From Malacoplasma penetrans HF-2 (GTDB lineage: Bacteria > Bacillota_I > Bacilli_A > Mycoplasmatales > Mycoplasmoidaceae): a stretch of 64,000 nucleotides of DNA. Below the pieces are notes generated by a model. It worked only from the letters and a program-made list of their open reading frames with translations. It had not been told where the DNA came from and made no database searches. Positions 8,375 through 34,078 of this stretch are shown here, in pieces. Location of the stretch: assembly GCF_000011225.1 (NCBI RefSeq), contig NC_004432.1, positions 1 to 64,000 on the forward strand, given 5' to 3'. How positions within the stretch are numbered: position 1 is the first letter of the stretch; the number at the start of each line of letters is the position of its first letter. Both the position numbers and the translations under genes were made by a program.

Positions 8375-9751
8375 GTACTGTAGCAAATTTTGGATAAACT
8401 CCATTTAGGAAATATTAAGATATTACTAACTGGAGTTTTTATTATGGCAAAAAAAGAAAAATCATCAGCTGAAAAATTATTAGAAAAATTAGGTGTTGAA
8501 AACAAAGAAGATTTTGACAACCTTTTAAAAGAATTAACCAAATCGTTTATAGAAAAAAGTTTAGATGTAGAAATGGATGGCCATTTAGGATATGAAAAAT
8601 GAGATCAGAATTCTAGAGAGTTTTCTAATAACTACCGGAAAGGAAAAACCAAAAAAACTTTAAATACTAAATATGGAAAATTGGATGTAGAAATTCCAAG
8701 AGATGTTAATTCTACATTTGAACCACAATTAGTAAGAAAACATCAAAGAAATTTAAATGACATAGAACACAATATTATTAAACTTTATTCTAAAGGAATG
8801 TCTACTAGAGAAATACAAGATGTTTTCCTAGACATGTATGGTGCAGGAGTAGATAAAGATTTAGTATCAAGAGTTACTGACAAAATTCTTCCTGAAATAC
8901 TTACATGACAGTCTAGACCTTTAGAAGATATATATATCTTATTATCTTTGTTGATGGAATTAGATTTAAAGTTAGAGATGACTCTCAATTTTTAGAAAAA
9001 TCAGTTTATATAATTCTTGGAGTTAATTTAGAAGGAATTAAGGAAATATTAGGTTTTTGAATAGGTGAAACAGAATCTGCTAAACAATGATTAAGTATTT
9101 TTAATGATTTAAAAAGTCGTGGTGTTAAAAAAGTATTTATTTCTTGTTCTGATAATCTAACTGGAATTAGTGATGCTTTTAAAAGTGCTTTCCCAGAAAC
9201 TTACATTCAAAAATGTATTGTTCATCAAGTAAGAAACTCTACAAAATTTGTTAGATATGATCACTTAAAAGAATTTACTGCAGATATGAAAAAAATCTAT
9301 CAAGCACCAAATTTTGATGTATCTATGAAAGCTTTAAAAATATTTACTGAAAAGTGATCTTCTAAATATGGCTATGCAACTAAATCTTGAAATAATAATA
9401 TAGAAGAGTTAACTACTTTCTTTCAATTTCCTGCAGAAATTAGAAGGCTAATTTACACTACAAATTTAATTGAAAATGTTAATAGAAATATTAGGAAGAT
9501 AACAAAAGCAAAAGGTGGAATTACATCTGTTAATGCATTATCTAAATTAATTTATTTAAGATTGATTAATATTTCAGAAAATTGGAAATCAAGAGTTGCT
9601 AATTGGGGTTTAATATTACAACAATTAAAAATCCTATTTGAAAATGAAATATAGGTTATTTCAAAATCAAACAGGATATGATATAAATTAAATCACTATA
9701 AACATTAGAAATGTTTAAAACCTAAATTGGACTTTATCCAAAAATCAGTAC
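8375..9751 (+). mobile_element. IS256-family insertion sequence, defective copy
   Basis: Imperfect terminal inverted repeats bound the element. The left end starts GTACTG at 8375 and continues into TTTTGGATAAACTCC. The reverse complement of the right end (9751 back) starts GTACTG and continues into TTTTTGGATAAAGTCC, so about 30 bp match with a 4-bp gap. The element is about 1.38 kb and carries one transposase frame. The flanking octamers (before 8375 and after 9751) do not match, so no target duplication is seen. The right end abuts a decayed IS3-type transposase. Confidence 0.8.
8444..9654 (+). pseudogene. IS256-family (mutator) transposase with a frameshift in an (AT)5 tract
   Basis: The first part matches the family N-terminal half: MDGHLGYEK, STREIQDVFLDMYGAGVDKDLVSRVTDKI, then a Trp-encoding TGA and RPLEDIY. 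The frame then fails at an (AT)5 run at 8928-8937. Removing one AT unit restores D-I-Y-L-I-I-F-V-D-G-I-R-F, the conserved strand with the first catalytic Asp. The rest continues intact through GVKKVFISCSDN, CIVHQVRNS and LIYTTNLIENVNRNIRK to TAG at 9652. The corrected product would be 402 aa, normal for IS256. The CDS has a GGAG upstream of ATG 8444. The copy is inactive unless slippage restores the frame. Confidence 0.88.
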
Positions 9752-16906: not shown

Positions 16907-17114
16907 CTTTTAAGTACCAATTAAATATTAAAATTAAGAAAATTTATTGTTTTTATTAGCAAATTATTAAATTTTACTAAATTTTGTTAAATAAATTATT
17001 TTCCTTATTATGTTTTAATTTTTGTTATTATTAATAAGTTATATTGTATTTTTAGTTATTTAAAAGTTTTTACTAATTCAATTAAATAATTTTTCATAAA
17101 TAAAAGGTTTGACT

Positions 17115-18683
17115 ATGTATACTCAAGAAAATAGCTTTAATGTAAAAGACCTGAGGGTTTCTTTTAACAAAAAAGCAAATATTAGTAAAATATATGAAAA
17201 AATCCAAAAAAAGTATTCTTTAAGAGAAATAACAATTCATGCATTTGTGGGATACCACAAATTTAAAAAGAATACTTTATTGGTTTGTTTTAGCAATCAA
17301 AAGATCTTTATTGATGATGAAAAGTCTAAAGTATTTTTTTCTGGTGTCTATACATATAGAGATATTAAAGAAATTAAATATCACTGAAATGAAAAAAATG
17401 AACTAAAGTCTTATATTGAATTTATTACTGAAAATTACAATACTTTCAAAATCAAAGGTATTTCTAAAAGAGAATTTAACAAAATCTTAGAAGTTTTTGA
17501 TAAACAAAAAGAGATATATGTTAAATCTTTTTTAGAAAAGATCTCTTCTGATGAGAAAAAATTTGAATTAATAGATGAAACCTTTTCTTATTCTTCAGTT
17601 TCAAATTTTTTAAAAAATAATAAAAATCCAGAAAATAATACTAATAATGAGGAGAGAAAAGACTTAGAGAATATGATTTTAGATAAAAACTTAAATAATC
17701 CAGTACAAGATAGTAATCAAGAAGAACAAAAGAAATTAATTAACACTTCTTTAAATTCTGTTGATGAAGATAAAGAACCAATATTATCAAGTGATTTAAT
17801 TAACCAATCAAATCTTTTAGTTGAATCTCTAGAATCTCCTAAAAATAAAAAAGTAGTTAATGATAGTTTAATTACTAACACTAATTCTTTTAGTAGTTCA
17901 TATTTAGTTAATTTATTAACTAATGAAGACACTTTGTTACCAGGTGGTAAAAAAACAGTTGTTTATTATTTATCTAAAAAGATTAAAGAATTAGAATCTA
18001 AAAGTTTAGCAATTAACGGGATTGATACTACTCCTATTCATTTAGATAAGAAAGTATTAAAGTTAAACACAATCCCTGTAATTGTAGAAACTAAACCTAT
18101 TAGTATCCAATCTACAAATGCAGAAGATGAATTAGAAAACAGATTAATTTTTACTAGAAACTGAATTGAATACACTAAACATAATGTAGTCAACAAAGTG
18201 TTAGGTGTAGATGCTAATGGTAATGGAGCATATATTGACATCTCAAAAGCTAGTTCTACTAGCACAATAGATGTATATAAAGCTAGAGAATATAAGGTTA
18301 ATGATGAAGTTAGAAGTGGATTAAGATCTTCACTTACTATTCCTTTCTTTGAAAAAAACAGTAGACCAGGATTAGATTTTTTCTATAACAACTCTAAAAC
18401 TGGAGAAAAACTTAACATCACTAAATATGATGGAATCTTATTCCAAGGTGTTAAATACTATTTTAATGTTTATAATGAATTCTCTAAATTACAAAAGAAA
18501 TATATCAGAATCTTTGTAGAAGATAAAAAGAGTAATGGAGACATCTTTAGAAAATATGAACTAATTTTTGAAGATGACTCAGTAACATATAAAGCTTATA
18601 ATGAGAGATCTCACATAATTGATGATACTTCTCCAAATTCAAGCTCATATGATTTAAAATGATTAATGTTTTTTAAAGAATAA
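17115..18683 (+). CDS. Hypothetical cytoplasmic protein with PH-like N-terminal domain
   Basis: 522 aa with UGA Trp codons at 17385, 18162 and 18660. I do not recognise the family. Residues 1-150 are compact and strand-rich with a hydrophobic pattern (FVGYHKFKKNTLLVCFSNQ, then VYTYRDIKEIKYHW) reminiscent of bacterial PH-like domains; this is only a resemblance. Residues 175-290 are Asn/Ser/Glu-rich and probably disordered. Residues 300-522 form a second folded region. There is no signal peptide or membrane segment. ATG 17115 is preferred to TTG 17109, which lies too close to AAAAGG. Confidence 0.7.
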
Positions 18684-19773: not shown

Positions 19774-21469
19774 TGTTAATTTTATGTGACTTTGTCCCTA
19801 TTAAATAGAACTTGGAGCAACTAAATTATATCAATGAGAAAAATATAATTTAGTTGCTTTTTGATATTTTTGGTTTTTGCTTTTTATTGCTCAATTAAAT
19901 ATTTAAAGAAAGTTCAATTTCTCTAATTTTAATTTTTTCCTCCCTTTCTTTTAAACTGTCGCTTCATCTTTCTAAAGCTATTCTTGTGTTTTCATTTTTT
20001 TGATAAATAGCTTTAGAAGTAGCTATACTTTTTCTTTTAATTTTTTCTAATTTTAAAAACTCATTATCATGAATCTCATTTATATATTCGTTTAATAAAT
20101 CATCATTTATTTCTCTGGCAAAATATTTAGTATTTTTATCAAGTACAAATTTTTCACCCGTTAACATGTTGGTTCTTAATAAGATTTGATTTTTCATATT
20201 AACTCTTTTATCTTCTTTGGTGAACAAACCCATAGCCTTCCCATTAAGGAAAAAATAAAAACCTTTTAGAACTTTACAAATCTTAGTTGTATAGAACAAG
20301 TCTTTTAAATCATCTTTACTTATTTTTATGAATTGGTTTCTTTTTCCTTTTTCAGACTTTTTATATCTTTGATTGTAAGCATCAACAATTAACTGATAGT
20401 TCTTTTGTATTTTTTCTTTAGTATTCAAACCATGTTTTAAAAATAATTTGTAATAAATTTGTTGTGCATTTTTAAATGATCTTTCAACATTAGCTTTAAA
20501 AGTTGGTTGGCTTTCTGACTTAACTTGTATTTCTAGTTTATTTAAACAATAAGTTAAATTGGTAACTGAATTTTCAGATCAAAATGTTTTTCTTCTGTCT
20601 GTTTTTATAATGTTTGGAGCCCCATACTTTTCTAGGACCTGTTTAAGCAGTTTACAATACCCAAAATTTGTTTCCTCATCATCAATTCAAAAACCTAGTA
20701 ACTTACCAGTCCCAGCATCAATGGCATGGTATATGTAGTATTTTTTAATTCCTATTCAAACACTAACGCAAGCATCTACTTCAACTATGTGACCAAAATC
20801 ATAGTTGTGTTTTACATAAGGGGGATTTTTAGTTTTTAAATATTCTGTGTACGTTGGTTTATATTTTCTTAGAAATTCCAAAATTTTTTCCTGGATTTTT
20901 AACTCTGCTAAATTTCCTTCTTTAAGTTTTTTCTTCATAGTTTTTCTTGTGATCTTTTTTGAATATGAAGTGAGTAAAAAATTTTCATTTAGAAGTTTAT
21001 TTACAAATCCGTATTTAACATTAAACTTGTCTTTTATTTCATCTAAATAAAAATCTAAATGAGTCATTTCATAATGACCATCACTCATTTCTTTGCATGG
21101 AGTAGTTACTTCAATATATTTCTCTATAATTGCTCTTTTTACTTCATCTTTTATTTTGTTAACATTTTCCTTATTTTTGTTTTTATGGCTAATCAAAAAA
21201 GTATTATCTTTAAAACTTTTTATAAACCTTCTAGACTGTTTGATTGAATATCCTGTTTTATTACTTAAAGTTTTTGGATTTAACTTTCCTTTTTTATTCA
21301 AAGAACCCATTTCTTCTAAAATTCAGAACCTACTATTCTCAAATTTTGTTAAATTGTTTTTTATTATTTCTTTCATAAAAAAACACCTCACTAGATTAAA
21401 CTCCAAGAGGGACAAAATCACAAATAATTGATTAGTCTTTTTTAGGGACAAAGTCTTGTAAAATCCACA
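19774..21469 (-). mobile_element. Intact ISNCY (IS1202-type) insertion sequence, 1696 bp
   Basis: The element begins TGT and ends ACA. Its imperfect terminal inverted repeats are about 27 bp, containing the perfect 13-bp pair GACTTTGTCCCTA (19788-19800) and TAGGGACAAAGTC (21443-21455). It carries one intact transposase on the minus strand and is flanked by a perfect 37-bp duplication. Long target duplications are a known trait of IS1202-type elements. A second AGGGACAAA copy near 21410 is a subterminal repeat. It sits between galU and the surface-protein operon. Confidence 0.88.
19895..21376 (-). CDS. ISNCY-family transposase
   Basis: This is a 493-aa DDE transposase, intact when the TGA codons are read as Trp. 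N-terminal HTH segments (LSNKTGYSIKQSRRFIKSF) precede the catalytic core: EVDACVSVWIG with the first Asp, IYHAIDAGTGKLLGFWID, then KTDRRKTFW with the second Asp, and ANVERSFKN with the probable Glu. The spacing and wording match ISNCY/IS1202-type transposases. AGGTG precedes the ATG at 21376. Assignment to the IS1202 group rests on motifs and the long target duplication. Confidence 0.85.
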
Positions 21470-21506
21470 TTTTTTACAAAAAATTTATAAAAAATTTGAT
21501 TTATAA
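21470..21506 (+). repeat. Right copy of 37-bp target-site duplication
   Basis: Identical to 19737-19773. It lies about 130 bp upstream of the first surface-protein gene, and because the target was duplicated, promoter sequence inside it would be retained on this side. Confidence 0.9.
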
Positions 21507-21633
21507 AAACCAATATCCTAAAATATATATAAATTAGTCTTGTGAGCTTACTCTGATTTTTTTTAAAAATAAAAGTAAAATTACTGACTAATTTTGTATT
21601 GAGCAAGATAGTTCAGGATATTGGTGTTTCATT

Positions 21634-24378
21634 ATGAAGAGTTTGAATAAATCATTTATTTCTAAAAGAAAAAAAAGAAAGTTATTAGTTTTCTCTAGTA
21701 GCTTGTTTTCTATGTTTGCAATAGGATTAGGGTTATCTTTAACAAGTTCTTTATCACTTAATAAAGATTCAATCACTAGTGTTAACTCAAATTTAAATGC
21801 TTTGAAAAATACTACAACTTCTACTCAGTCTGCAGCTAATTTTACTGTTAATGCTGCACAAACACCTTTAAATAAAAAAGCAAATGAAGTTACAAACAGT
21901 GATATTCAAAACATTTTAACCCCAAGTGCCACTGTATCTTCTTATAATGTTGTTATATTACCAGTTACAGAAACCAATATTAATAAAGGTTATGTAAACT
22001 TTTTAGTTTATCAAACTTATTGAGATGGTTCACTAATGAAAACAGAATTTGCAGATGCATCTAAATCTATGAATACTGCAAATGGAGGGACACAAACAAA
22101 TTATCAAAGTGATGATACATATGATAATGTTGTCTTAAATGAATATGGTTTTACAAGTGGGGAGGCAACTACAAATCCTTCTACTACCAATATTTTTAGT
22201 ACTGCTAAAATAAATAATTTAGCAAATTGAATAACTGCAGAAAAATATAATATTGAATGAAAGAGTGATGAAGAATTAAAAACTTATATTACTAATTCAA
22301 CAGCAACAACATTAACTACAGAAATGTTAGTTAATAATTTTTTTAGCAATACAACAAACTTACCTAATTTAGCAACGAGTGGTAGTACAAACGCCAATAA
22401 TCAACCTTCTTCTACTACTATAACTGTTACATCAGTAGATAAAAACGGGAATACAGCAAATGATAGTAATTCTGTTGGTTTATTTAAAATTAAAATTCAA
22501 ATAAATCAAACTTCTAAATCAAATTGATTAAATGACAATTTTCCTACTGGTTCAACAGGTGGTGAAAGTGCAAATGGAAATGATGACAAAAAAACTATTA
22601 CTATTACAAAATATATTGGAGGTTTTAATACAGCTTCTGGACAAAGATATATAGTTGATATTGATTCTGAATTGCAAACTATTAGAAACTGAACAATTTC
22701 TGATACATCTTTATTTGATGGAGAATCAACTGAAAATAACACAGTTTCAAGTTTAAGACCATCACAATTTGAATCTCCATATGGTGGTAAAACTGCTTTA
22801 ATAAGTCTTTTTTCAACGGGGACAGGATTATATAGCACAGGAAATACTGTGACACCTATTGTTCAATATTCTTTTACAGAAAGCACTAATACAAAATACA
22901 ATTTCCATGATCCTTCTGCTTCAAACAATAATGGATCAAATGGAACTCAAGGATCTGGTCTTATTCAAGAAATCAACAACCAGAGAGAAAACATCAAAAT
23001 CACTGACATTACAACTATAGCAAATGATGTTGATGGAAGTTTAAGAATAATTATTAAGTATGATGGGTTCAGCATATACTCAGGAACTGTAGTATCTCAA
23101 ACAAAAACATATGATTATGTTGCTGGTACTTTTGCAACTTCTAGTCAACCTGAAAATTTATTCTTTTCTTGAAAAGATGTAAATACATTATCAGCATATG
23201 GATTAAATACACCTTCTGATATTGTTAATCAATTCATGAGAAATAACTCAAACACTGAATTTGTTAGAGTTTTTACTAATCAATTTATAAATGCTTCTTC
23301 TGAAATTCAAGCATTAAATAGAACAGCTACAATTTTATTTGGAACAGCCACTGGAGAAGATGCTCTACCAGAAACTAATAATTCTTTAAATGATCAAACA
23401 GGATTATATAGTCCAGGAAATAGTGTGAGTGGTAGATCTATTACAGTGAGACTGACTTTTGATAACTGAAATGGAACAACTCAACAAAAAGTTTTTCAAC
23501 AGAGTTTCACTTTCTCTGGTGTTAGTGACACTGGGACATATAGCTACAGTACTACTGGCAATACAACAGGGTATGATGACAGTCTTGTATTGACATGACG
23601 TTCAAATGATGCTGTATTAACTAATAATCCATCATTTGCTAGTACAACACCTTCAACTGTTGTTTACAATATTATGACTTCAGGAACTTCTACAAGTTAT
23701 TATGAAACTTTTGCTAGTACAAATAATAATGCTTCAGAAATAAGTGTTTCATTTGAAGCAAATGATGTTGATGGTTCATTAATAGTTTTTTTAACAAAAA
23801 CATCAACAAGCACTGATGCAAATATAAAAACCCAAAATGCTCATATTTATTCTCAATTATTTACAGGATTTAGAAAAACAACTGAAACTACTGGTGTTGT
23901 TTCATTTAGTTGAATACCTAATGAGGAAGTATCTGGAGCATTACAATCAATCCCTGTAAACAATGTTACTAAAGAAGATATTATTGAACATTATCTAAGT
24001 AATTCAGCATTGTTCCAAAATGGTGATTTAGGAACAGCTGATATTACATTAACACCAAATATTAATGAAAATTCATTAACAATAGAAGTTACAATGTCAT
24101 TCTTCAATCAAGATAATGTAACTACAACTAACAGAACTTTTGCTACAAAACTAACAGGTTTTGCAACATATCAATATACAAATAGCAGTTCATTTACACC
24201 ACCTAAAAACATGACAGCTGTATTTGCGATTTCAGCAGCAACAGTTTTATCTATTACACTAGGTGTTGTTTTATTAGCAATGCTATTAAAAAGAGCTAGA
24301 TTGAGAAACTTCAAAAGTTACCATGATAGTGTTTTAGAAAAGAAAGTAAAGAAACACACAAGAAGAACTATTAAATAA
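21634..24378 (+). CDS. Large surface protein with signal anchor and C-terminal membrane segment
   Basis: 914 aa with many UGA Trp codons. A basic start (KSFISKRKKRKLL) precedes a hydrophobic segment at about 18-40 and no lipobox Cys. The ectodomain is Ser/Thr/Asn-rich and repeats a module with the pattern (V)DGSL.I.(V/I)...(F).GF, for example near residues 470, 705 and 800. This resembles mycoplasmal lipoprotein-associated (Lipoprotein_17-type) domains. One membrane span (about 862-884) and a short, strongly basic cytoplasmic tail end the protein. The next surface gene starts 27 bp downstream. Probable adhesin or surface scaffold; function inferred. Confidence 0.75.
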
Positions 24379-24404
24379 AAACAAAATAAATATTGGAGAA
24401 AATT

Positions 24405-27400
24405 ATGAATAAAAAATTAAAAAATAGATTATACATTTCAACATTAGCTATTTCTTTAACTGGAACTTTTGCGGCAATTGGTTCTGTTGCTTTGCCTAGT
24501 TCTTCTTTCAACAACTCATCAAGTAGTGAAATTTCAAGTGTTTCTAAAAATTTAAATGCAGCCACAACAACAGCTGCCACTCCTAGAGCAACTAGTGAGT
24601 ATGTTGCTTCTTGAAATATAGGAACTCAAGATATTAATAATTTAAATTCTCCAATTCAAAACATAGCTTTTAATACTTCAAACACTCAATATGCTTTGTT
24701 AACAACTGCTGAAAGTAAATATGACAACAGTAGTTATTCTATTACTTCAAGAACAACAGAAGAAAATGTAAATTTTAATGCATTATCTGTTTTCAAAATG
24801 TCAGATGGTTCTTTAAGTTGAACAAAAAAAGCATCAGATATAAAATTAAGTGCTACAAGAGTAACTTCATTAGTTACAGGCTCTAAATTTGTTGCAGTAA
24901 CTTATTTAGATTCTTATATGGATAGAGAGGCTTATTATCTGGCAGTAGTTCAAGGTAGTGATAATAAATATTATTTAGTATTTTTAAAAGAGGGAGATAC
25001 AACAAATTTTTCTCCTGAAAAAATAAAATTAAATGCAACAGGGGCAGGAGCAGCATCTTCAAGCTCAACTTCTCAATTTTATATAAATGTTGTTTCTTCT
25101 AGTAATTGAGATATTAATATTTATCAAATTCAAACTGATACTTCAGGTAGTAGCAATAACTTAGGTGTTAATTTATTTGATTTAAAAAATAATGGTTCTA
25201 CTAGTACAACAGTATCTGCATCAAGTTTAAGTGTTTCTAATAATTTTGCTAGTATTTCTTCTGAATTATTAAGTTCTTACTTTTATAAAACAAATGGAGC
25301 TAAAATTTCATCTAAGCTTACAAAATCATTTAAAGATGATGATTATGTTTATTTTGTATTCCAACAAGAACCTGCAAATGTAACTGCAGCAGATTTTAAT
25401 AATTTTGTTTCAATCTTAAGACTTCCTCTTTCATCTCATGAAATTACAATTTCATCTGAATCTTTATATAGTTTAAGTTTAAGTTCTCAACAAGTGGATG
25501 TAATTTTAGGAAGTGCAATAAATAATTATAGACCAAGTGTTGCTATTGCTTCAAATGGTGATCAACATACTGTAATTTTGTCTAGTAAAAATTCTGATAA
25601 ATATTTTTATTCTGTTGTTGAACCAGATATGTTCAATAATTCTGACCCTGCAACATTTAATGAATTAACTTCAACTGATTCTGCTTATATAGTAAGTGTT
25701 AATCCAATATATAATTCAGATTCTTCAATTAATAGTTATGTTGCTTTATTGAGCAATAACAAAGCTATAAGAATTAATTCTGATTTTTCAGCAATTAGTT
25801 TAATGTATGATTTCACAACATTAAATGCAACTACATCTAAATTAATATTTAACATTTTTACTATTCCTGGAGATGTTAACTGATATGCTCAAATGACTGA
25901 TGGTAAAATTATTCAATTTAATGGGACAAACCTTATTGGGGAATTAGGAAATACTGCAGTTTCAAATAGAAGAGAAAATAGTGCCAATGTTGTTTTATTA
26001 CAAGAAAGTCAAATTTCTTCAGAAGTTTTATTCCAAAAAGTTACTGATAACTCAAACACTAGTCAGGCATCAGATTATTTTAAACAATATGTAACAAGCA
26101 ATGTAACAAGTTTTTTACAGATTAATTCATATGATACAGCTTTTGGGACTCCGTCTTTCACTGCTGATGTAAAAACAGTGTCAAAAATTGGATCAACAAA
26201 CAATTATAGTGTTACTATTGCTTTTTCACAAAATATAAGACAAATGACTAATGGTAGTATACCTACTACTGCAACTAGTAAAGTTCTTTTTGCAACTCAA
26301 ACTTATACTTTCATTAATGAAAATTCTAGTATTACTGTAAGAGATAGAGGGAGTGTTTCTGCAAGCATCACAGGTAAACTACCAAGTGAAATTACAAATG
26401 CAGATGTAGCTTCAATATTAAATTTCCAAAATGTTGGAAATTATTCATTAACACTTGATCCAAATGACACACAAGGGATTTTAACTGTACAAGTTAAATC
26501 TGATGCTGTTTGAATAAATGGTAGTTTAGAAACTAATAATGTTCAAACTATTACAATTGGAGAAGAAAATAATCCATACTTCAAAGTTGATTTATTCAAT
26601 GGATTAAGTTCTAACATTGATTTAGTAACTCAAGATTATATAGATCAATCAGCAAATGCTGCTTTAAAAACAACTCTAACAAATAAATATTCCACAACAT
26701 TAGCTTCACAAGTTACAGCTCAAAATATTGTTGATGACTTCTTAGTTTATGGTAATGCATTTAGTAGTGCTCAATTAACTGCTAATAATATTATTCAAAG
26801 ACCAACAGCTGATAATGTTCAACTATATCCAATGGATTCAGAAGGACAATTATATGTAATTGTTACTGTTCCTAAAATTGGGGATAGAACAAATGTGGTG
26901 TATTCATTCACAACAGCAGCTATTTTTAGAAAAAACTTTACTACTAATCACAATGTTTATTTAAGTTTTAAACACAACAATACTGTATTAAACACAACAC
27001 ATACTGTTACTACAGGTGGTTCAACTACAGAAACTCAATTAAGTACATTAACACCATCATCTATTGTTAGTTTAATAAACTCTAATAAAAGTTTATTGTT
27101 CTATTTTATGGATATGTCTAATTATGTGTTTAATATCTTGGCTAACTTAGTAGACAATAGTAATAGTGAAGCAGTACTAACTATTGCTCCAAGTGATCCA
27201 TTAGGTACAATTACATTTACAATTAATTTCCAACAACAAATTCCTGGATTAGATTCTTCTTATAGCTACACTTTCTCAGGGTTTACAACTGCTAATACTA
27301 ACTTATCTGGTAGACCACAACAAATGCCAGGTTTTAGTTGAGGTACAATACAATCAACAGCACTAAATGGTAGAAAACCAACTGATATTACAAGTGAGTA

Positions 27401-28433
27401 TTTAGAACAAAACTTTTCAACTTTATTTGTGTATACAAACAATGCTAATCAATTAGATCGTGATATTACTGTAACACCATTGAATGGTAGTGGTGGAGTA
27501 TTAGTTACTATTACTTTCTATGATTGATGAGAAGAACAAACTAATAATGGTCAAACTACTTATGTAAAATTAGCTCAAAAAACATTCTCAACTATTATTA
27601 AGAGTGGTCTTTCTCAATCAAGAGAACCAATTAATGCTGTTGTTTGAAAATCATTCTATCAATTATCAACTACAAACAATGCATATACAACAGGTACTGC
27701 ATCAAATGCATTAACATTAATTAATTCAGTTGCTACAACTGAATTAGAAAAATTAGATTTACTTGCAAACATTTCTGATTACTTTAGAAATAATGTTCAA
27801 ACAGCACTACAAAGTGATCCAAGTGCATTATCATTATCAATTGTTCCAAATGATAATGAAGGAACATTATCAATGTATGCAGTTGTTAAATTAGATGGAC
27901 AAACATATAGTTATAGCAGTGTACTATCTGGATTTAATCTTAATGGTGTAGATTATTCAGTAGTATTAGCTCAAGAAACTTCTGATGCTGTACAAGCATT
28001 AAAGAGTTCATTACCTTCTAACCTAACAGAACAACAAATTGAATCTCTTGTGAATGTTAGTGTGGGAAATGGTTTAACAAAAAACATTCAAGTTACATAT
28101 GATGATATTAAAGGTACATTATCATTAACTGTAAGCTTATACAAAGATGGTCAAGTAGTTGCTACAACTACTAGAGATTATTCAGGATTCTCAACAAGTA
28201 CAATTGTTTATAATGGTACAAATGCATTAATTATAATAGCAGCAGTTGTAATTCCTATTATTCTGTTATTAACTCCAATTCTATACATCTCATTATTTAA
28301 AAATAGAAGAGATATTAAAAAAGTTTCTAAAGTTCTTGATAAGAGATTATCAGAACAAGCTGTTAAGAAAAAAGTTACTGAAGTTAACACAATTGCAGAT
28401 CTATTGAATTTAGAAACTGACAAAAACTGATAA
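24405..28433 (+). CDS. Very large surface protein with repeated lipoprotein-associated domains
   Basis: 1342 aa with numerous UGA Trp codons; GGAG precedes ATG 24405. A signal-like segment (about 8-30) has no lipobox. Residues about 65-500 may form a repeated beta structure with recurring short W-containing strands. At least four later modules follow the pattern LP(S)...(I)...(PND)..G.L.(V)........(F/Y)SGF (near residues 660, 880, 1145 and 1220), resembling Lipoprotein_17-type domains. A membrane span at about 1272-1294 and a charged cytoplasmic tail of about 45 residues end it. Its architecture is the same as that of the preceding protein. Confidence 0.75.
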
Positions 28434-28476
28434 AAATTAATATTATTTACAAACAAATTATAAAGAAAGGGAAATT

Positions 28477-31400
28477 ATGAAAAATACATTAATATTTCTA
28501 GTTACTGAAGGGATAGGGTTAAACAAGAAATGAAAAGGAAATTATTTAAAGTTAGCTAATAAACCTAATATTAACTATCTAATTTCTGGTATCTATCCTT
28601 GAGCATTATTATCAAATGATAGAAAAAGAAATAAGTATATTCCTAAAAAAACTTATCCTTCAGTTAAAAGAGATGTAGATTCTAACTTTTATGAAATGTT
28701 ATATGGTGAAACAGACATAAAAACATACTTAGAATTATTAGATGAACAAATTAAAAGTAAATCTTTACACAACCTAGAAATATTTAATAAACTAATTGAC
28801 CGTTCTAATAAAACAAATTCAAAAATAGTTCATATTTTCTCAATGTTGTCTTTTAATGAAAATAAATTTAATGCTAAAAATTTATTTTATGTTATCAATG
28901 TCTTAATTAAAAAAGGACTAAAACCTGTTCTTCATTTAATTGCTGATGGTCAAGATGAAAGACCTTATAGTTTTAATAAAAACTTATCAAATTTCTCTAA
29001 ATTCTTATTAAAAAGAAACACACCTATAGTTACTGTAGCTGGTAGAAACCATGTCTTTGGAAAAAAAGGTAGAGACTTTTTAGACAATGAACATGTAATG
29101 GATTATTTTGAAACAATCTGTGGTTTAGGTGAACAAGCTTTTACTGAAGCTAGTGAATATACTAATGAAAACCTAGCAAATAAAGTAATGGATGCTGATA
29201 TTCTTCCGGCATACAATACAATCATGGATGGATACTTTGTATCTAAAGATGACAGTGTATTATTTTTAAACAGTGATCCAGATGATTTTGCTTCACTTGC
29301 TAGAATGATGAAAACATCACCTAAATTAAAAGGATTATTTTTATCAAGTTTAGCTCCAATCTATGGAACAAAATTAGATGCAGTATTTTTTGAAAACCCT
29401 GTTAAAGGTAAAGAAGAATCATTATTAGCTAACATGGTTGCTAAAAATGATAATAAAGTTTTAGTGCTTGGTTTAAACCATAAAAAAGGATTTATTAATA
29501 AATTTTTTGGTGAAAATACTAATAATGAAAACATAACAAGAAAAATACTATCAAGTCCTGCATGTACTTCTGATAAAGAATACTTCTCTTTATCTTCAAA
29601 AATGTTGATTGATAAAACAATAGATTCAATTGGTAAGTATGATGTTATTTTTGTAATGTGTCCAATGATTGCTGAAGCTGCAAGATCTTCTGACTTAAAA
29701 CAACTATTATCTACTATTGAAACATTTGACCAACACTTAGGAAGATTAATTAACCTATGTAGATGTACTGGTAACATTATTGCTCTAACTTCAGCTTATG
29801 GTGCTGCTGAAAAGATGTTAGATAAACACTTAAATATTGTTCCACATAACAAATCTTCTTTAGTTCCATTTGTGTTTACTAATGGAGATCTATGACCTAA
29901 GAAAATGCAAAGTAACTTTTTAGGTGTATATTCTTCAATCTTATCAACTCTAGATTCATTAGATACTGAACATAAATTGTTCTACACTTCTTTAATTGAT
30001 CCTAATTTTACAAAGAGTAAAATTGAAGAATCATTAAATGATATGTTCTTAATTTGAAAAGAAACAATTTCAGATGACTTAATTAAAAGTTTTGAAGATA
30101 ACAAATTAAACTTTTATAGTGAGTTTTCAAAAGATGAACAATTCTTAAGTGAAAAACAAAAATATGTTGTTCTAAAAGAAATTATTGAAGTTAATAAAAA
30201 AGTTTTATTAACTCCAGAAGCTAGAAAAAAACTATACAATGTTTTAATTGATTATGTTGAATACAACAAAATTGACTTTGTTGGTTTAGACATTAACTAT
30301 AAGAAAACTTTCCAAACATTGTTTGATAAAGAAATTAAAATGTTAAAACTTTCAAAATTATCTAATAAATATTTTGATAAGAAAATTTGAATTACAAACT
30401 TTGTTAGAAATGATGAATGAATTAACTCAATTAAATTTGATTTACTAGAATCATCAAAAAGAACATTTGATGTTGATAAAAATGAGAAGTTTAGTACTAG
30501 AGTTTACAATGAAATGATTCCTTTCTTATTCTTTGAAAAAATAAGAAAATCTGAAGTTGAAATCTTAAAAACTAATGATGCTGTTTCAATTGCTCAATTC
30601 TATGAATTGATTAAAGAAGAAGTTAGAGATATTTTTGAACAATATATCTTAGATAAACTTCCAGTTGAAAGTGAAGATGCAACTGATGAAGTAGTTGAAG
30701 AAGAAAAATCACCTGAACAAATTGCTACTGAAAAAGCAGTTCATTCAATCTCAGTATATTTTGATTACTTTGTAGAAGTAGTTGATTTAATTAGATATGA
30801 AAGAGATTATCTTGAAAGCTTCAATAGAAGATATAAAGAAACTCAAGAACATCTTGCTAAACAAAACAAAATATATGATTCAACAGATATCTTTAATGTA
30901 CCTGAAATTGCTTTAAACCCATTAACAGCTAAAATTGTTTCATTAATTAGACTTTATAAAAGTGAATTGAAAAGTCATGCTAAAACAGAAAAAACTGAAA
31001 ATAAGAAAACTATTTACAAGTTTGACATGGCATATTCAACAAAAATTGATATTGCAAAACAATCAATTGCATATGATGGTGAATTTAATGAAGAAGTAAA
31101 CTTAAAGAAACAAGATGAGTTTGAAAAGAAATTTGCTGAGTATGTTGAAGTTTACAAAGAGTTTGATAACACTGTTATTGAATGAGAATCAGATGAAGAA
31201 AAAGATGATGAGTATTCAATGGATGATGAAACAATTGAATATGATGAAAATGGTAACCCAATAATGGTTGATAAAATTGATACTAAGATCAAAACAAGAC
31301 CTGAGTATGATTTAACAGAAGTTTGAGTTCAAAAAAGAATTGATGAATACAACAATGTTGATAACTACAAACCAAATATTGCAGTAGATGCTATTAAACA

Positions 31401-31512
31401 ACTTGATAAAAATAAACAAACTAGTGTTGCTAAAGCTAGACTTAGAGATTACAGCAAACTAAGTGAAGTATGAAAAAAGACAGCCCAATCTGAAACGGAA
31501 AATAATGGATAG
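28477..31512 (+). CDS. Phosphoglycerate-mutase-like pseudoenzyme with long helical extension
   Basis: 1011 aa with UGA Trp codons. Residues 1-480 follow the order of cofactor-independent phosphoglycerate mutase (iPGM), but catalytic elements are altered. The first metal-binding LDGWG is VTEGIG (9-14). The GNSEVGH segment with the phosphoserine is absent. DGRD is DGQD (Asp157 region). GRYYAMDRD is GRNHVFGKKG (about 189). NpDMVGHTG is CPMIAEAA (about 395), and TADHGNAE is TSAYGAAE (438-445). Residues about 480-1011 are acidic, Lys/Glu-rich and mostly helical, with no family match. AAAGGG precedes the ATG. It lies 43 bp after the surface gene and 8 bp before the TPI-like gene. Confidence 0.75.
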
Positions 31513-31520
31513 GAGATAGT

Positions 31521-32438
31521 ATGAGAGAAAAAATATTAATTACTAACTGAAAAATGAATGCTGACTATGTGTCAATATCAAAATTCTTTAAAAATATACC
31601 TAATTTTGAAAATGTGAAAGTAATGGTAGCACCATCTTATTTAGGTATTGTTCCAAGTTTAGGGATGTCTAAAAATGCAAAAGTAGAAGTGGTTGCTCAA
31701 AATGTATCATTTCCTTCACTTGGTAACCATACTGGTAGTGTTTCTTGATTGGAATTAAAAGATTATGGAATTAAAACTGCTTTCTTAGGTCACCCTGATG
31801 TTAAAGTAGATTTCAAAGAAAAAAACTATCAAGTTAATGCTAAACTTCAAAAACTTCTTAAAAATGGAATGAATGCTGTTCTTTTTATTGAAGAAACAAA
31901 AGTAGATTTGTCTGAAGAAAGTACTAAAGAAAACTTAAGATTACAAATTAATCAAATTTTTAATGGGATTGATGCATTAGATATAGTTGATAGAGTTTAT
32001 ATAGTTTATAAACCAACTTTTATGGGTGAGATTAATTCTAAGTTTGACAATGAATTTATCTTTGGAACTATAAGAGTTATTAGAGAATTCTTAAGAACTA
32101 AATTCGGATACTATGTTGCTAATAATTTACCAATTCTTTATGGTGGTGAAATTATTAATGATGATATTGAAGAAATTTGTAAAAACAATGATGTTGATGG
32201 AATCTTAATTGAAGATGAAAGAGCATTATCTAACAAATATATTTCAATCTTATACAAACACTTATTCAATGGTTCAACATATGCATACAAACAACATTAT
32301 GATCATAAGGTTGCATTAGATATTCCTACTGAAGAAGAAAGAATTAAAAATGCTACTCAAGTTTCAGACTTTGATATGTATGACATTACTAGTGAAACTT
32401 ACTTTGATGATATTAAGATTAATGAAGAAAACATGTAA
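31521..32438 (+). CDS. Triosephosphate-isomerase-like protein with catalytic Glu replaced
   Basis: 305 aa with two UGA Trp codons. TPI landmarks are kept: TNWKMN (Lys11), AQNVS, FLGHPDVK (His91 at the catalytic His position) and LPILYGGEI. The motif YEPVWAIGTG that carries the catalytic base reads YKPTFMGEIN, so Lys164 replaces the Glu and loop 6 is lost. GHSERR is GHPDVK. A tail of about 45 residues exceeds the usual 250-aa length. Activity is unlikely. AGGAG precedes the ATG. It is the last gene of the surface-protein/PGM-like unit and precedes a terminator. Confidence 0.8.
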
Positions 32439-32461
32439 TCTTGTTAATTATTAATTACTAA

Positions 32462-32487
32462 AAATAGCTTAACAGCTATTTTTTTTA
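32462..32487 (+). terminator. Rho-independent terminator after the TPI-like gene
   Basis: Arms AAAATAGCT (32462-32470) and AGCTATTTT (32475-32483) with loop TAAC and T run. Confidence 0.85.
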
Positions 32488-32758
32488 TTTCTTTAAAGCA
32501 AGAAATTTGAAAGAAAAAGGAAAGAATTTTGAAAGATTTAGGAAAAAAATAAAAGAGCATTCTAATTTTATAATTTATTGTTACTAAACAAATCTCATTT
32601 GATTTTTTATTAACAATAAATAAAAGGAAATAAAAATAATAAAGAATAACAAAATTTTTAAATTATTAATTAGATTGTTCTTATCTATAAAATTGAATTT
32701 ATAAAAAGAGTATAGTTTATATATAATAATTGAGATATTGAAGAATTAGTAGATTGTT

Positions 32759-34078
32759 ATGAAAATATATGATTTTGTAAGCAAAACAGATAAAGAAGTA
32801 AGTTTAGATAAAAAAAATATCAAAATGTATGTTTGTGGACCTACAGTTTATAACCATGTTCATATTGGTAACTTAAGACCAATTATTACTTTTGATGTTT
32901 TAAATAGATTATTTTTAGAACTTGGTTATAATGTTACTTTTATTCATAACATTACAGATATTGATGACAAAATAGTTAATAAAGCTAAAGAAGAAAATAT
33001 TGGAGAACTAGAACTTTCTTCATATTATGAAACTCAATATTTTGACATTTTAAAAACAATCAATATTCATACTTCTAATATGAAATTCCCTAGAGTTTCA
33101 GATCATATTAAAGATATTGAAAACTATATTCAAAAAATCGTTAATAATAAGTTTGCATATTTAGTAGATGGTGATGTTTATTTTGACACTACTAAATCTA
33201 ACCAATATGGAAAAATTTCTAATAAAAAATTAGATGAACTATTAGTTGGTGATAAATCTGAAGATAATTTGAAAAAAAACAATCCCCAAGATTTTGCTTT
33301 ATGAAAACAAACTACAATTGGATTAAACTGAGACTTAAAATTTTCTACAGGAAGACCAGGATGACATACTGAATGTTCTTGTTTAATAAATAAATATTTA
33401 GGTGATCAAATAGATATTCATGGAGGAGGAATAGATTTAAAATTTCCACACCATGAAAATGAAAATATTCAAAATATAGCTGTAAATAATAAAGATTTGG
33501 CAAGAATTTGAATGCATGTAGGACATTTAAATATTAATAACCAAAAGATGTCTAAATCACTTTCAAATTTTATCCTAGCTAAAGATTTATTGAGTGAATA
33601 TAACACTAATACTGTTAGATGGTTCTTTTATCAAACAAGTTATTCAAACCCATTAAACTTCACTACTGAAAATCTTATTAATTCAAAAAATCAATTAGAA
33701 AATATTATATACAACCTAAATATTTTTAAAAGTCACTTAATAATAGAACAGAAGTATAATGAGAAAAATTTAGAGTTTGATAAAAGTAATTTAATTGAAT
33801 TAACAAACAATTTTAACTTACCAAACATTGTTTCTTTTATTGAAGAAAAAATTAAATATAGTTCAATATTGTTAAGAAATAAAAACTTTGAAGAACTAAA
33901 CAAACTACATTTTAATCTTTCTTACTTACTAACAAAAATATTAGGAATTATACATGTTAATTTATTTGATGATGAAGCTATAGAACTTTTAAATAAATGA
34001 AATAAATTAAAACAAGAAAAGAATTTTAGTGAGTCAGATAAATATAGAAAATTATTAATGGAAAAGAAGTTATTATAA
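32759..34078 (+). CDS. cysS: Cysteinyl-tRNA synthetase
   Basis: This class I synthetase charges tRNACys. It encodes 439 aa with several UGA Trp codons. The zinc/ATP-binding start [19 protein letters not shown] contains the HIGH-type motif [12 protein letters not shown] starts at Lys263, and GWHTECS and HHENE are conserved. The ATG lies 32 bp after a TATAAT at 32722-32727. rlmB follows after 7 bp; the cysS-rlmB-sigma-rplK-rplA order matches Firmicutes. Confidence 0.96.

Follow-up and report, generated by a model that had tools for sequence, protein, structure and literature searches.

A putative iPGM-like pseudoenzyme with an acidic helical extension, encoded beside a TIM-like pseudoenzyme and two predicted surface proteins in Malacoplasma penetrans

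Glycolytic folds have been described before in the context of mycoplasma motility. In the gliding motor of M. mobile, the N-terminal region of the F1-like beta subunit holds PGK, and MMOB4490, a second PGK homologue of the same species, is without catalytic residues (both according to PMC11864180). M. penetrans glides with the tip leading, and its gliding has been described as bearing no evident molecular resemblance to that of M. pneumoniae or M. mobile, which likewise differ from each other (PMC9282661). Here, we describe a cassette of four genes within the first 64 kb (denoted as the window) of the M. penetrans HF-2 genome, a single contig of 1,358,633 bases. The cassette encodes two predicted surface proteins (SMALL and BIG) and two putative pseudoenzymes, namely an iPGM-like protein with a long acidic extension (iPGM*) and a TIM-like protein (TIM*). 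The constituent features are listed in Table 1. The iPGM*/TIM* gene pair was not found described in the literature searched, a collection that lacks most subscription papers.

Table 1. Positions of the cassette features in the window and the evidence for each.
Feature	Coordinates	Strand	Evidence
SMALL, predicted surface protein of 914 aa, first cassette gene	21634..24378	+	hydropathy, orthologues
BIG, predicted surface protein of about 1342 aa	24405..28433	+	Lipoprotein_17, topology
Candidate docking peptide VxxI/VxDLL, last 26 residues of the BIG cytoplasmic tail	28353..28430	+	motif in 9/9
iPGM-like pseudoenzyme domain (iPGM*), residues 1-494, putative	28477..29958	+	hhalign, AF2 model, fold match, active-site tally
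Acidic helical extension of iPGM*, residues 495-1011, genus-restricted	29959..31512	+	pI, low-confidence helices, phylum scan
TIM-like pseudoenzyme (TIM*), 305 aa, putative, acidic tail of about 60 residues	31521..32438	+	PF00121, E 2.4e-37

The iPGM* gene (28477-31512, + strand) comprises 1011 codons that are open in genetic code 4, including 9 TGA codons for Trp. Read with table 11 the ORF is split into pieces, hence it is open at full length only because TGA is read as Trp. Residues 1-494 are a homologue of iPGM (gpmI). Pfam identifies iPGM_N (E 1.8e-14) and Metalloenzyme (E 1.1e-11), both above cut-offs, and the NCBIfam model TIGR01307 spans iPGM* end to end, with 105.5 bits against an equivalog cut-off of 330.65. 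The domain order of iPGM is therefore retained, as had been proposed in the original prediction. A profile comparison (hhalign) of residues 1-494 with 13 ordinary iPGMs results in an E-value of 3.7e-40; the identity to ordinary iPGM is 22-25%. The AF2 model of residues 1-500 (pLDDT 77.7, pTM 0.79) was built from an alignment in which the window protein and 6 of its orthologues were joined by 6 ordinary iPGMs taken from IMG/VR contigs; these ordinary rows may have drawn the model towards the iPGM fold. Of the 8 iPGM loci found on viral contigs, L111 (stop in translation) and L112 (short) were left out. The best fold matches of the model, which is mostly poorly predicted at residues 15-59, are solved iPGMs (1o98: Z 33.4, 468 residues aligned, rmsd 3.2, VIA-align), and the modelled chain, helped by the six iPGM rows, is consistent with the two-domain iPGM fold. 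The next matches after the iPGMs, at a Z of about 15-17, come mainly from phosphodiesterases, sulfatases and alkaline phosphatases, which belong to the same superfamily. A model of the full-length protein (7 sequences, pLDDT 51, pTM 0.36) was left out of the fold search.

The active site was tallied for 8 complete iPGM* orthologues, 8 ordinary iPGMs of the genus and 5 from outside it; another 5 of the 10 outside iPGM loci were dropped for want of a clean ORF. The numbering of the site (D12, D403, H407, D444, H445, H462) is that of the Geobacillus enzyme. The D403 and H445 columns hold Ala and Tyr, respectively, in 8/8 orthologues. The D444 column holds Ala (5) or Pro (3), the H462 column Asn (7) or Ile (1), and the H407 column Arg (4), Lys (1) or Gln (1), with His left in two. 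D12 (Glu in seven orthologues, Asp in one) is the sole conservatively kept of seven metal-site residues, and the two-metal site of iPGM is missing from iPGM* throughout these 8 orthologues. Of the arginines, R257 is replaced by Asp in 8/8, R261 by Asp (5) or Asn (3), and R191 by Lys or Gln; K336, R185 and the first Asp of DGRD are kept. In total, 126 gap-filtered columns are invariant in the 13 ordinary iPGMs: iPGM* keeps 24 of these, has a different invariant residue in another 24, and varies in 78. With both metal sites and the phosphate-binding arginines lost across all 8 complete orthologues, iPGM* is predicted to be catalytically dead.

The individual motif changes claimed originally were recovered, namely LDG to TEG (residues 10-12), DMVGHTG to AEAARSS (near 395-405) and TADHGNAE to TSAYGAAE (438-445). 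The claim of a missing phosphoserine motif requires a qualification: the GNSEVGH motif is indeed absent, yet Ser62 of the window protein is placed on the phosphoserine column in three alignments. The placement is uncertain, because a 6-residue insertion comes directly after. Since the column is occupied by Ser (5), Thr (1) or Ala (2) in the 8 orthologues, Ser62 cannot be a shared catalytic residue. Intact metal ligands together with a phosphorylatable Ser, an arrangement that would contradict a pseudoenzyme, were looked for in the orthologues without success: the ligands are replaced and the Ser is unconserved.

The C-terminal part of iPGM* had been predicted as an acidic helical extension of 530 residues without recognisable counterpart. 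The extension as such is real, but its length is corrected to about 517 residues, with a start near residue 495. Residues 491-1011 have a pI of 4.85 and an Asp plus Glu content of 21% (median of the window ORFs: 12%); the pI of residues 1-490 is 9.1. The helices of the extension are seen in the full-length model of low confidence (pLDDT 51), and the term arm, as used below, therefore denotes secondary structure only. Hydrophobic periodicity is weak in most of these helices, so that no coiled coil is called. Among 392 genomes of the phylum, the extension turned up in 5, each belonging to this genus, and a scan of one genome per species (84,980 species) returned 7 loci, all of them Malacoplasma or uncultured Mycoplasma. 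A PDB sequence search with the extension gave no match at E 1, and Pfam yielded only scattered weak matches, each in 1 or 2 of 8 extensions. The missing counterpart thus holds outside the genus, whereas orthologues exist within it. Overall, sequence, 8 orthologues, profile comparison and modelled fold agree with the original interpretation, namely a pseudoenzyme derived from iPGM that carries a long extension of acidic and helical character.

A second putative pseudoenzyme, absent from the original prediction, is encoded by a gene that starts 8 nt downstream of iPGM*. TIM* belongs to the TIM sequence family (PF00121, 129 bits, cut-off 20.1), but scores far under the cut-offs of the NCBIfam TIM equivalogs (TIGR00419: 76.2 bits, cut-off 130.6). 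The tally for TIM* covers 10 orthologues, and 10 of 20 outside TIM loci were dropped for lack of a clean ORF; the catalytic residues of TIM are Lys12, His95 and Glu165. In 10/10 orthologues, the Glu165 column holds Lys (Lys164 in the window) and the Ser96 column holds Pro (Pro92 in the window). The Ser211 column holds Glu (9) or Asp (1), and loop 6 is lost. Asn10, Lys12 and His95 (Asn9, Lys11 and His91 in the numbering used further below) are kept in 10/10, that is, the catalytic set retains its Lys and His and has Lys in place of Glu. In loop 3, which forms the TIM dimer contact, all 10 orthologues retain Gln, Gly, Thr, Gly and Ser, and the fold of TIM* is probably still dimeric. Judged by these residues, TIM* is a triosephosphate isomerase homologue that is predicted to be catalytically dead. 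Two neighbouring glycolytic genes, tpiA and gpmI, appear to have dead counterparts side by side.

The ordinary tpiA-gpmI pair of this genome is located at 482028-484284, in an order that is swapped relative to iPGM*-TIM*. The ordinary gpmI (482779-484284) has all tallied active-site residues intact and lies next to tpiA. Because both ordinary genes are neighbours, a duplication of the pair is attractive as the origin of the pseudoenzymes. In phylogenetic trees each pseudoenzyme sits on a long stem, and the AU p values for a clade with the genus's ordinary genes are 0.34 and 0.28; such a common clade is, as far as the sequences indicate, neither favoured nor rejected. An ordinary gpmI is found in 8 of the 10 genus genomes. 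It was not found in the draft genomes G003 (78% complete) and G005 (93% complete), and the single TIM match in each of these is TIM*. The missing genes may be gaps, but gene content alone would still allow a metabolic role of the pseudoenzymes. As tpiA and gpmI are neighbours, one assembly gap would hide both.

The cassette itself is conserved. The order SMALL-BIG-iPGM*-TIM*, on one strand and with gaps of 2-43 nt, is found in 8/8 complete cassettes, corresponding to 8 of the 10 genus genomes. The constant order and strand together with the short gaps favour an operon. A consensus scan of window positions 21300-33000 detected no terminator-like site on the + strand and promoter-like sites no commoner than chance. 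Orthologues of iPGM* are present in 9/9 other genus genomes, which speaks against a chance finding: 7 are of full length, one is split over two contigs by a contig break within the gene (G002), and one is cut by a contig that begins inside it (G003). TIM* is likewise present in 9/9, directly downstream of iPGM*. The genes beyond the cassette differ between the two clades of the genus. Outside the genus, only ordinary enzymes were matched, with an identity of at most 27% (iPGM) and 32% (TIM), and a search of viral contigs for iPGM* relatives yielded 88 stretches, none of them confirmed. The dN/dS ratio is 0.04-0.17 for residues 1-486 of iPGM*, 0.07-0.34 for the extension and 0.006-0.20 for TIM*, compared to 0.06-0.21 for gpmI and 0.09-0.22 for tpiA (counting method, four pairs, the widest of which is near saturation at synonymous sites). 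These ratios indicate that purifying selection acts on iPGM* and TIM* with a strength similar to that on gpmI and tpiA.

The first two genes of the cassette encode SMALL and BIG, both predicted to be membrane-anchored surface proteins. SMALL has an N-terminal hydrophobic segment (17-35), a C-terminal transmembrane segment (863-881) and a short basic cytoplasmic tail. An orthologue adjoins BIG in 9/9 genomes that have this side of the cassette on the contig; across the 9 SMALL orthologues, no Pfam family was matched by more than one. BIG, with its start assumed at 24405 (the ORF opens at 24393), contains 4 stretches matching Lipoprotein_17 (Pfam, E 7.9e-13), a family found in 9/9 orthologues; its C-terminal transmembrane segment leads into a tail of about 48 aa on the cytoplasmic side. 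A hydropathy scan of iPGM* and TIM* revealed no hydrophobic signal or transmembrane segment, and both are predicted to be cytoplasmic. Across 8 orthologues, the identity to the BIG of the window is 51-62% in the cytoplasmic tail versus 28-50% in the ectodomain; the tail of SMALL (24-62%) is without special conservation. In 9/9 cassette orthologues the tail of BIG ends in the motif VxxI/VxDLL, and all nine match the profile (length 1323) to position 1318 or beyond. In contrast, for 13/13 other BIG-family copies whose match extends to position 1300, it breaks off at 1305-1307 of 1323, as judged by local matches to a profile built from cassette BIGs, with ends read directly in three. Of these 13 copies, three are located just downstream of a cassette and ten elsewhere; the three BIG copies of this genome have ends that, read directly, differ from the cassette tail. 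The simplest reading of an extra conserved cytoplasmic peptide on the cassette BIG is a docking site for the pseudoenzymes, and we regard the peptide as a candidate docking site for iPGM* or TIM*. Copies of both families also occur elsewhere in the genome: three large BIG-family copies with near-identical C-terminal tails lie in a row at G000:C1:1037841-1050766, and full or partial SMALL-family copies are arranged in tandem at G000:C1:462925-473163, about 10 kb upstream of the ordinary tpiA-gpmI pair.

Several further features were observed in the window. Directly upstream of it lies an integrase-core (rve) ORF of 518 aa (19895-21451, - strand), which is perhaps part of a mobile element; an ORF equal to it in length and hydrophobic-segment score adjoins BIG copies at L087:5999-7555. 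A fragment of a Mutator-family transposase (8390-8995, E 2e-40 over part of the model) is located in an AT-rich stretch with few long ORFs. An ORF of 524 aa (17109-18683, + strand) has no Pfam match at E 0.01, and six relatives (L025, L026, L027, L028, L030, L031) have ORFs of 464-546 aa on the corresponding side of the cassette, whose N-termini resemble one another.

We consider the chances about even that iPGM* and TIM* constitute a structural adapter under the membrane and are no longer metabolic. The basic iPGM fold and the TIM fold would interact with one another, with the conserved cytoplasmic tail of BIG, or with both, the contact to BIG being made via the cassette-specific VxxI/VxDLL peptide. 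The long acidic helical arm of iPGM* would reach to internal cytoskeletal material, and the assembly would thereby clamp or cluster BIG and SMALL, a putative pair of adhesins. The most plausible site of such an assembly would be the attachment (gliding) organelle of tip-bearing mycoplasmas. Against the adapter, BIG need not be what iPGM* and TIM* bind, and the tail peptide may have a role in export or for a different partner. Likewise, the genus-wide link to gliding is extrapolated from M. penetrans, and most relatives considered here are uncultured. If correct, the cassette would be a clear example of how folds from metabolism are reused for structural purposes in the small genome of a parasite. 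The cassette genes also offer concrete candidates for the gliding system of M. penetrans, for which no evident molecular resemblance to the systems of M. mobile and M. pneumoniae is described (PMC9282661).

A more specific proposal, which we put forward as doubtful, is that the cassette may form the core of the Malacoplasma attachment or gliding organelle, with BIG and SMALL as legs and the dead enzymes as an internal plate that holds and moves them. In this case, glycolytic folds would have entered mycoplasma motility at least twice independently (PGK, and iPGM together with TIM).

Other explanations are considered less likely. As regulatory pseudoenzymes, iPGM* and TIM* would bind active glycolytic enzymes or metabolites, for example as TIM/TIM* heterodimers, and link sugar metabolism with the surface proteins or with adhesion. 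Some ligand binding is conceivable given that TIM* keeps Asn9, Lys11 and His91 as well as the dimer residues of loop 3 in 10/10 orthologues and iPGM* keeps Lys336 and Arg190 in 8/8. However, the residues that grip phosphate are gone or charge-reversed (R257 to Asp in 8/8, Ser211 of TIM to Glu or Asp in 10/10), and binding of a phosphate substrate therefore looks unlikely. As an ordinary gpmI was, moreover, not found in 2 of the 10 genus genomes, we consider a regulatory function unlikely. Alternatively, both folds may have acquired a remodelled active site and now catalyse a different reaction. The active-site columns with other invariant residues (24 in iPGM*, Lys164 and Pro92 in TIM*) as well as Lys11 and His91, still present in TIM*, are what such new enzymes might be expected to display. 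But both iPGM metal sites are without ligands, some of the columns vary (H407, D444), and the conserved cassette mates are structural surface proteins, which makes new enzymes quite improbable.

A role at the outer surface, with iPGM* and TIM* leaving the cell to bind host matrix in the manner of ordinary mycoplasma glycolytic enzymes, has a precedent in M. pneumoniae, whose glycolytic enzymes, including phosphoglycerate mutase, are reported to bind matrix components (PMC7954426). Such moonlighting is nevertheless very improbable here, as the hydropathy scan indicates neither a hydrophobic signal nor a transmembrane segment, and the strong conservation is unlike that of exposed antigens. Finally, back-up glycolytic isozymes that are active despite all changes are hardly credible: G003 and G005 do harbor the pseudoenzyme pair without a detected ordinary gpmI and with TIM* as sole TIM match, and Ser62 does fall on the phosphoserine column, but the metal ligands and the TIM catalytic base are lost in every orthologue examined (including those of G005), both genomes are drafts in which one gap would hide tpiA and gpmI together, and 8 of 10 genomes have the ordinary gpmI.

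Returning to the structural adapter, the cassette can be compared to several known systems. With ordinary iPGM (gpmI), iPGM* shares the fold and domain order of residues 1-494 (Z 33 to 1o98), but it differs by the absence of metal ligands, phosphoserine motif and substrate arginines and by the additional acidic extension of 517 residues. With ordinary TIM (tpiA), TIM* shares the whole family profile, the dimer residues of loop 3 and the Asn, Lys and His of the site; it differs by the replacement of Glu by Lys, the loss of loop 6 and the phosphate Ser, and an acidic tail of 60 residues. With respect to gliding, the F1Fo operon of this genome (66-74 kb) contains both full PF00006 genes (F1 alpha/beta), the genome further has one sub-cut-off match of 33 residues, and no second F1 alpha/beta-like set was found in the genome by PF00006; a single full pair implies that a motor set of the M. 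mobile type is not present. The genome encodes one PGK, and no PGK pseudoenzyme was found. As a separate observation outside the window, the F1Fo beta subunit (G000:C1:71304-73634, L089:7304-9634, 777 aa) carries some 300 additional residues N-terminal to its first ATP-synthase domain; in M. mobile, PGK is held by an N-terminal region of a beta subunit.

The likeness to M. mobile consists in a glycolytic fold that is part of the surface or motility machinery (PGK) or is kept without catalytic residues (MMOB4490). The motor PGK is, however, thought to be active and binds the F1-like ATPase (PMC11864180), whereas the cassette combines two other enzymes, both predicted to be dead, in a putative operon with surface proteins. 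The genes Gli123-Gli349-Gli521-Gli42 of M. mobile, a tandem array that encodes very large surface proteins among others (PMC7052211), resemble the cassette in gene arrangement only. The cassette therefore falls outside the M. mobile system and at most resembles it in the structural recruitment of glycolytic folds.
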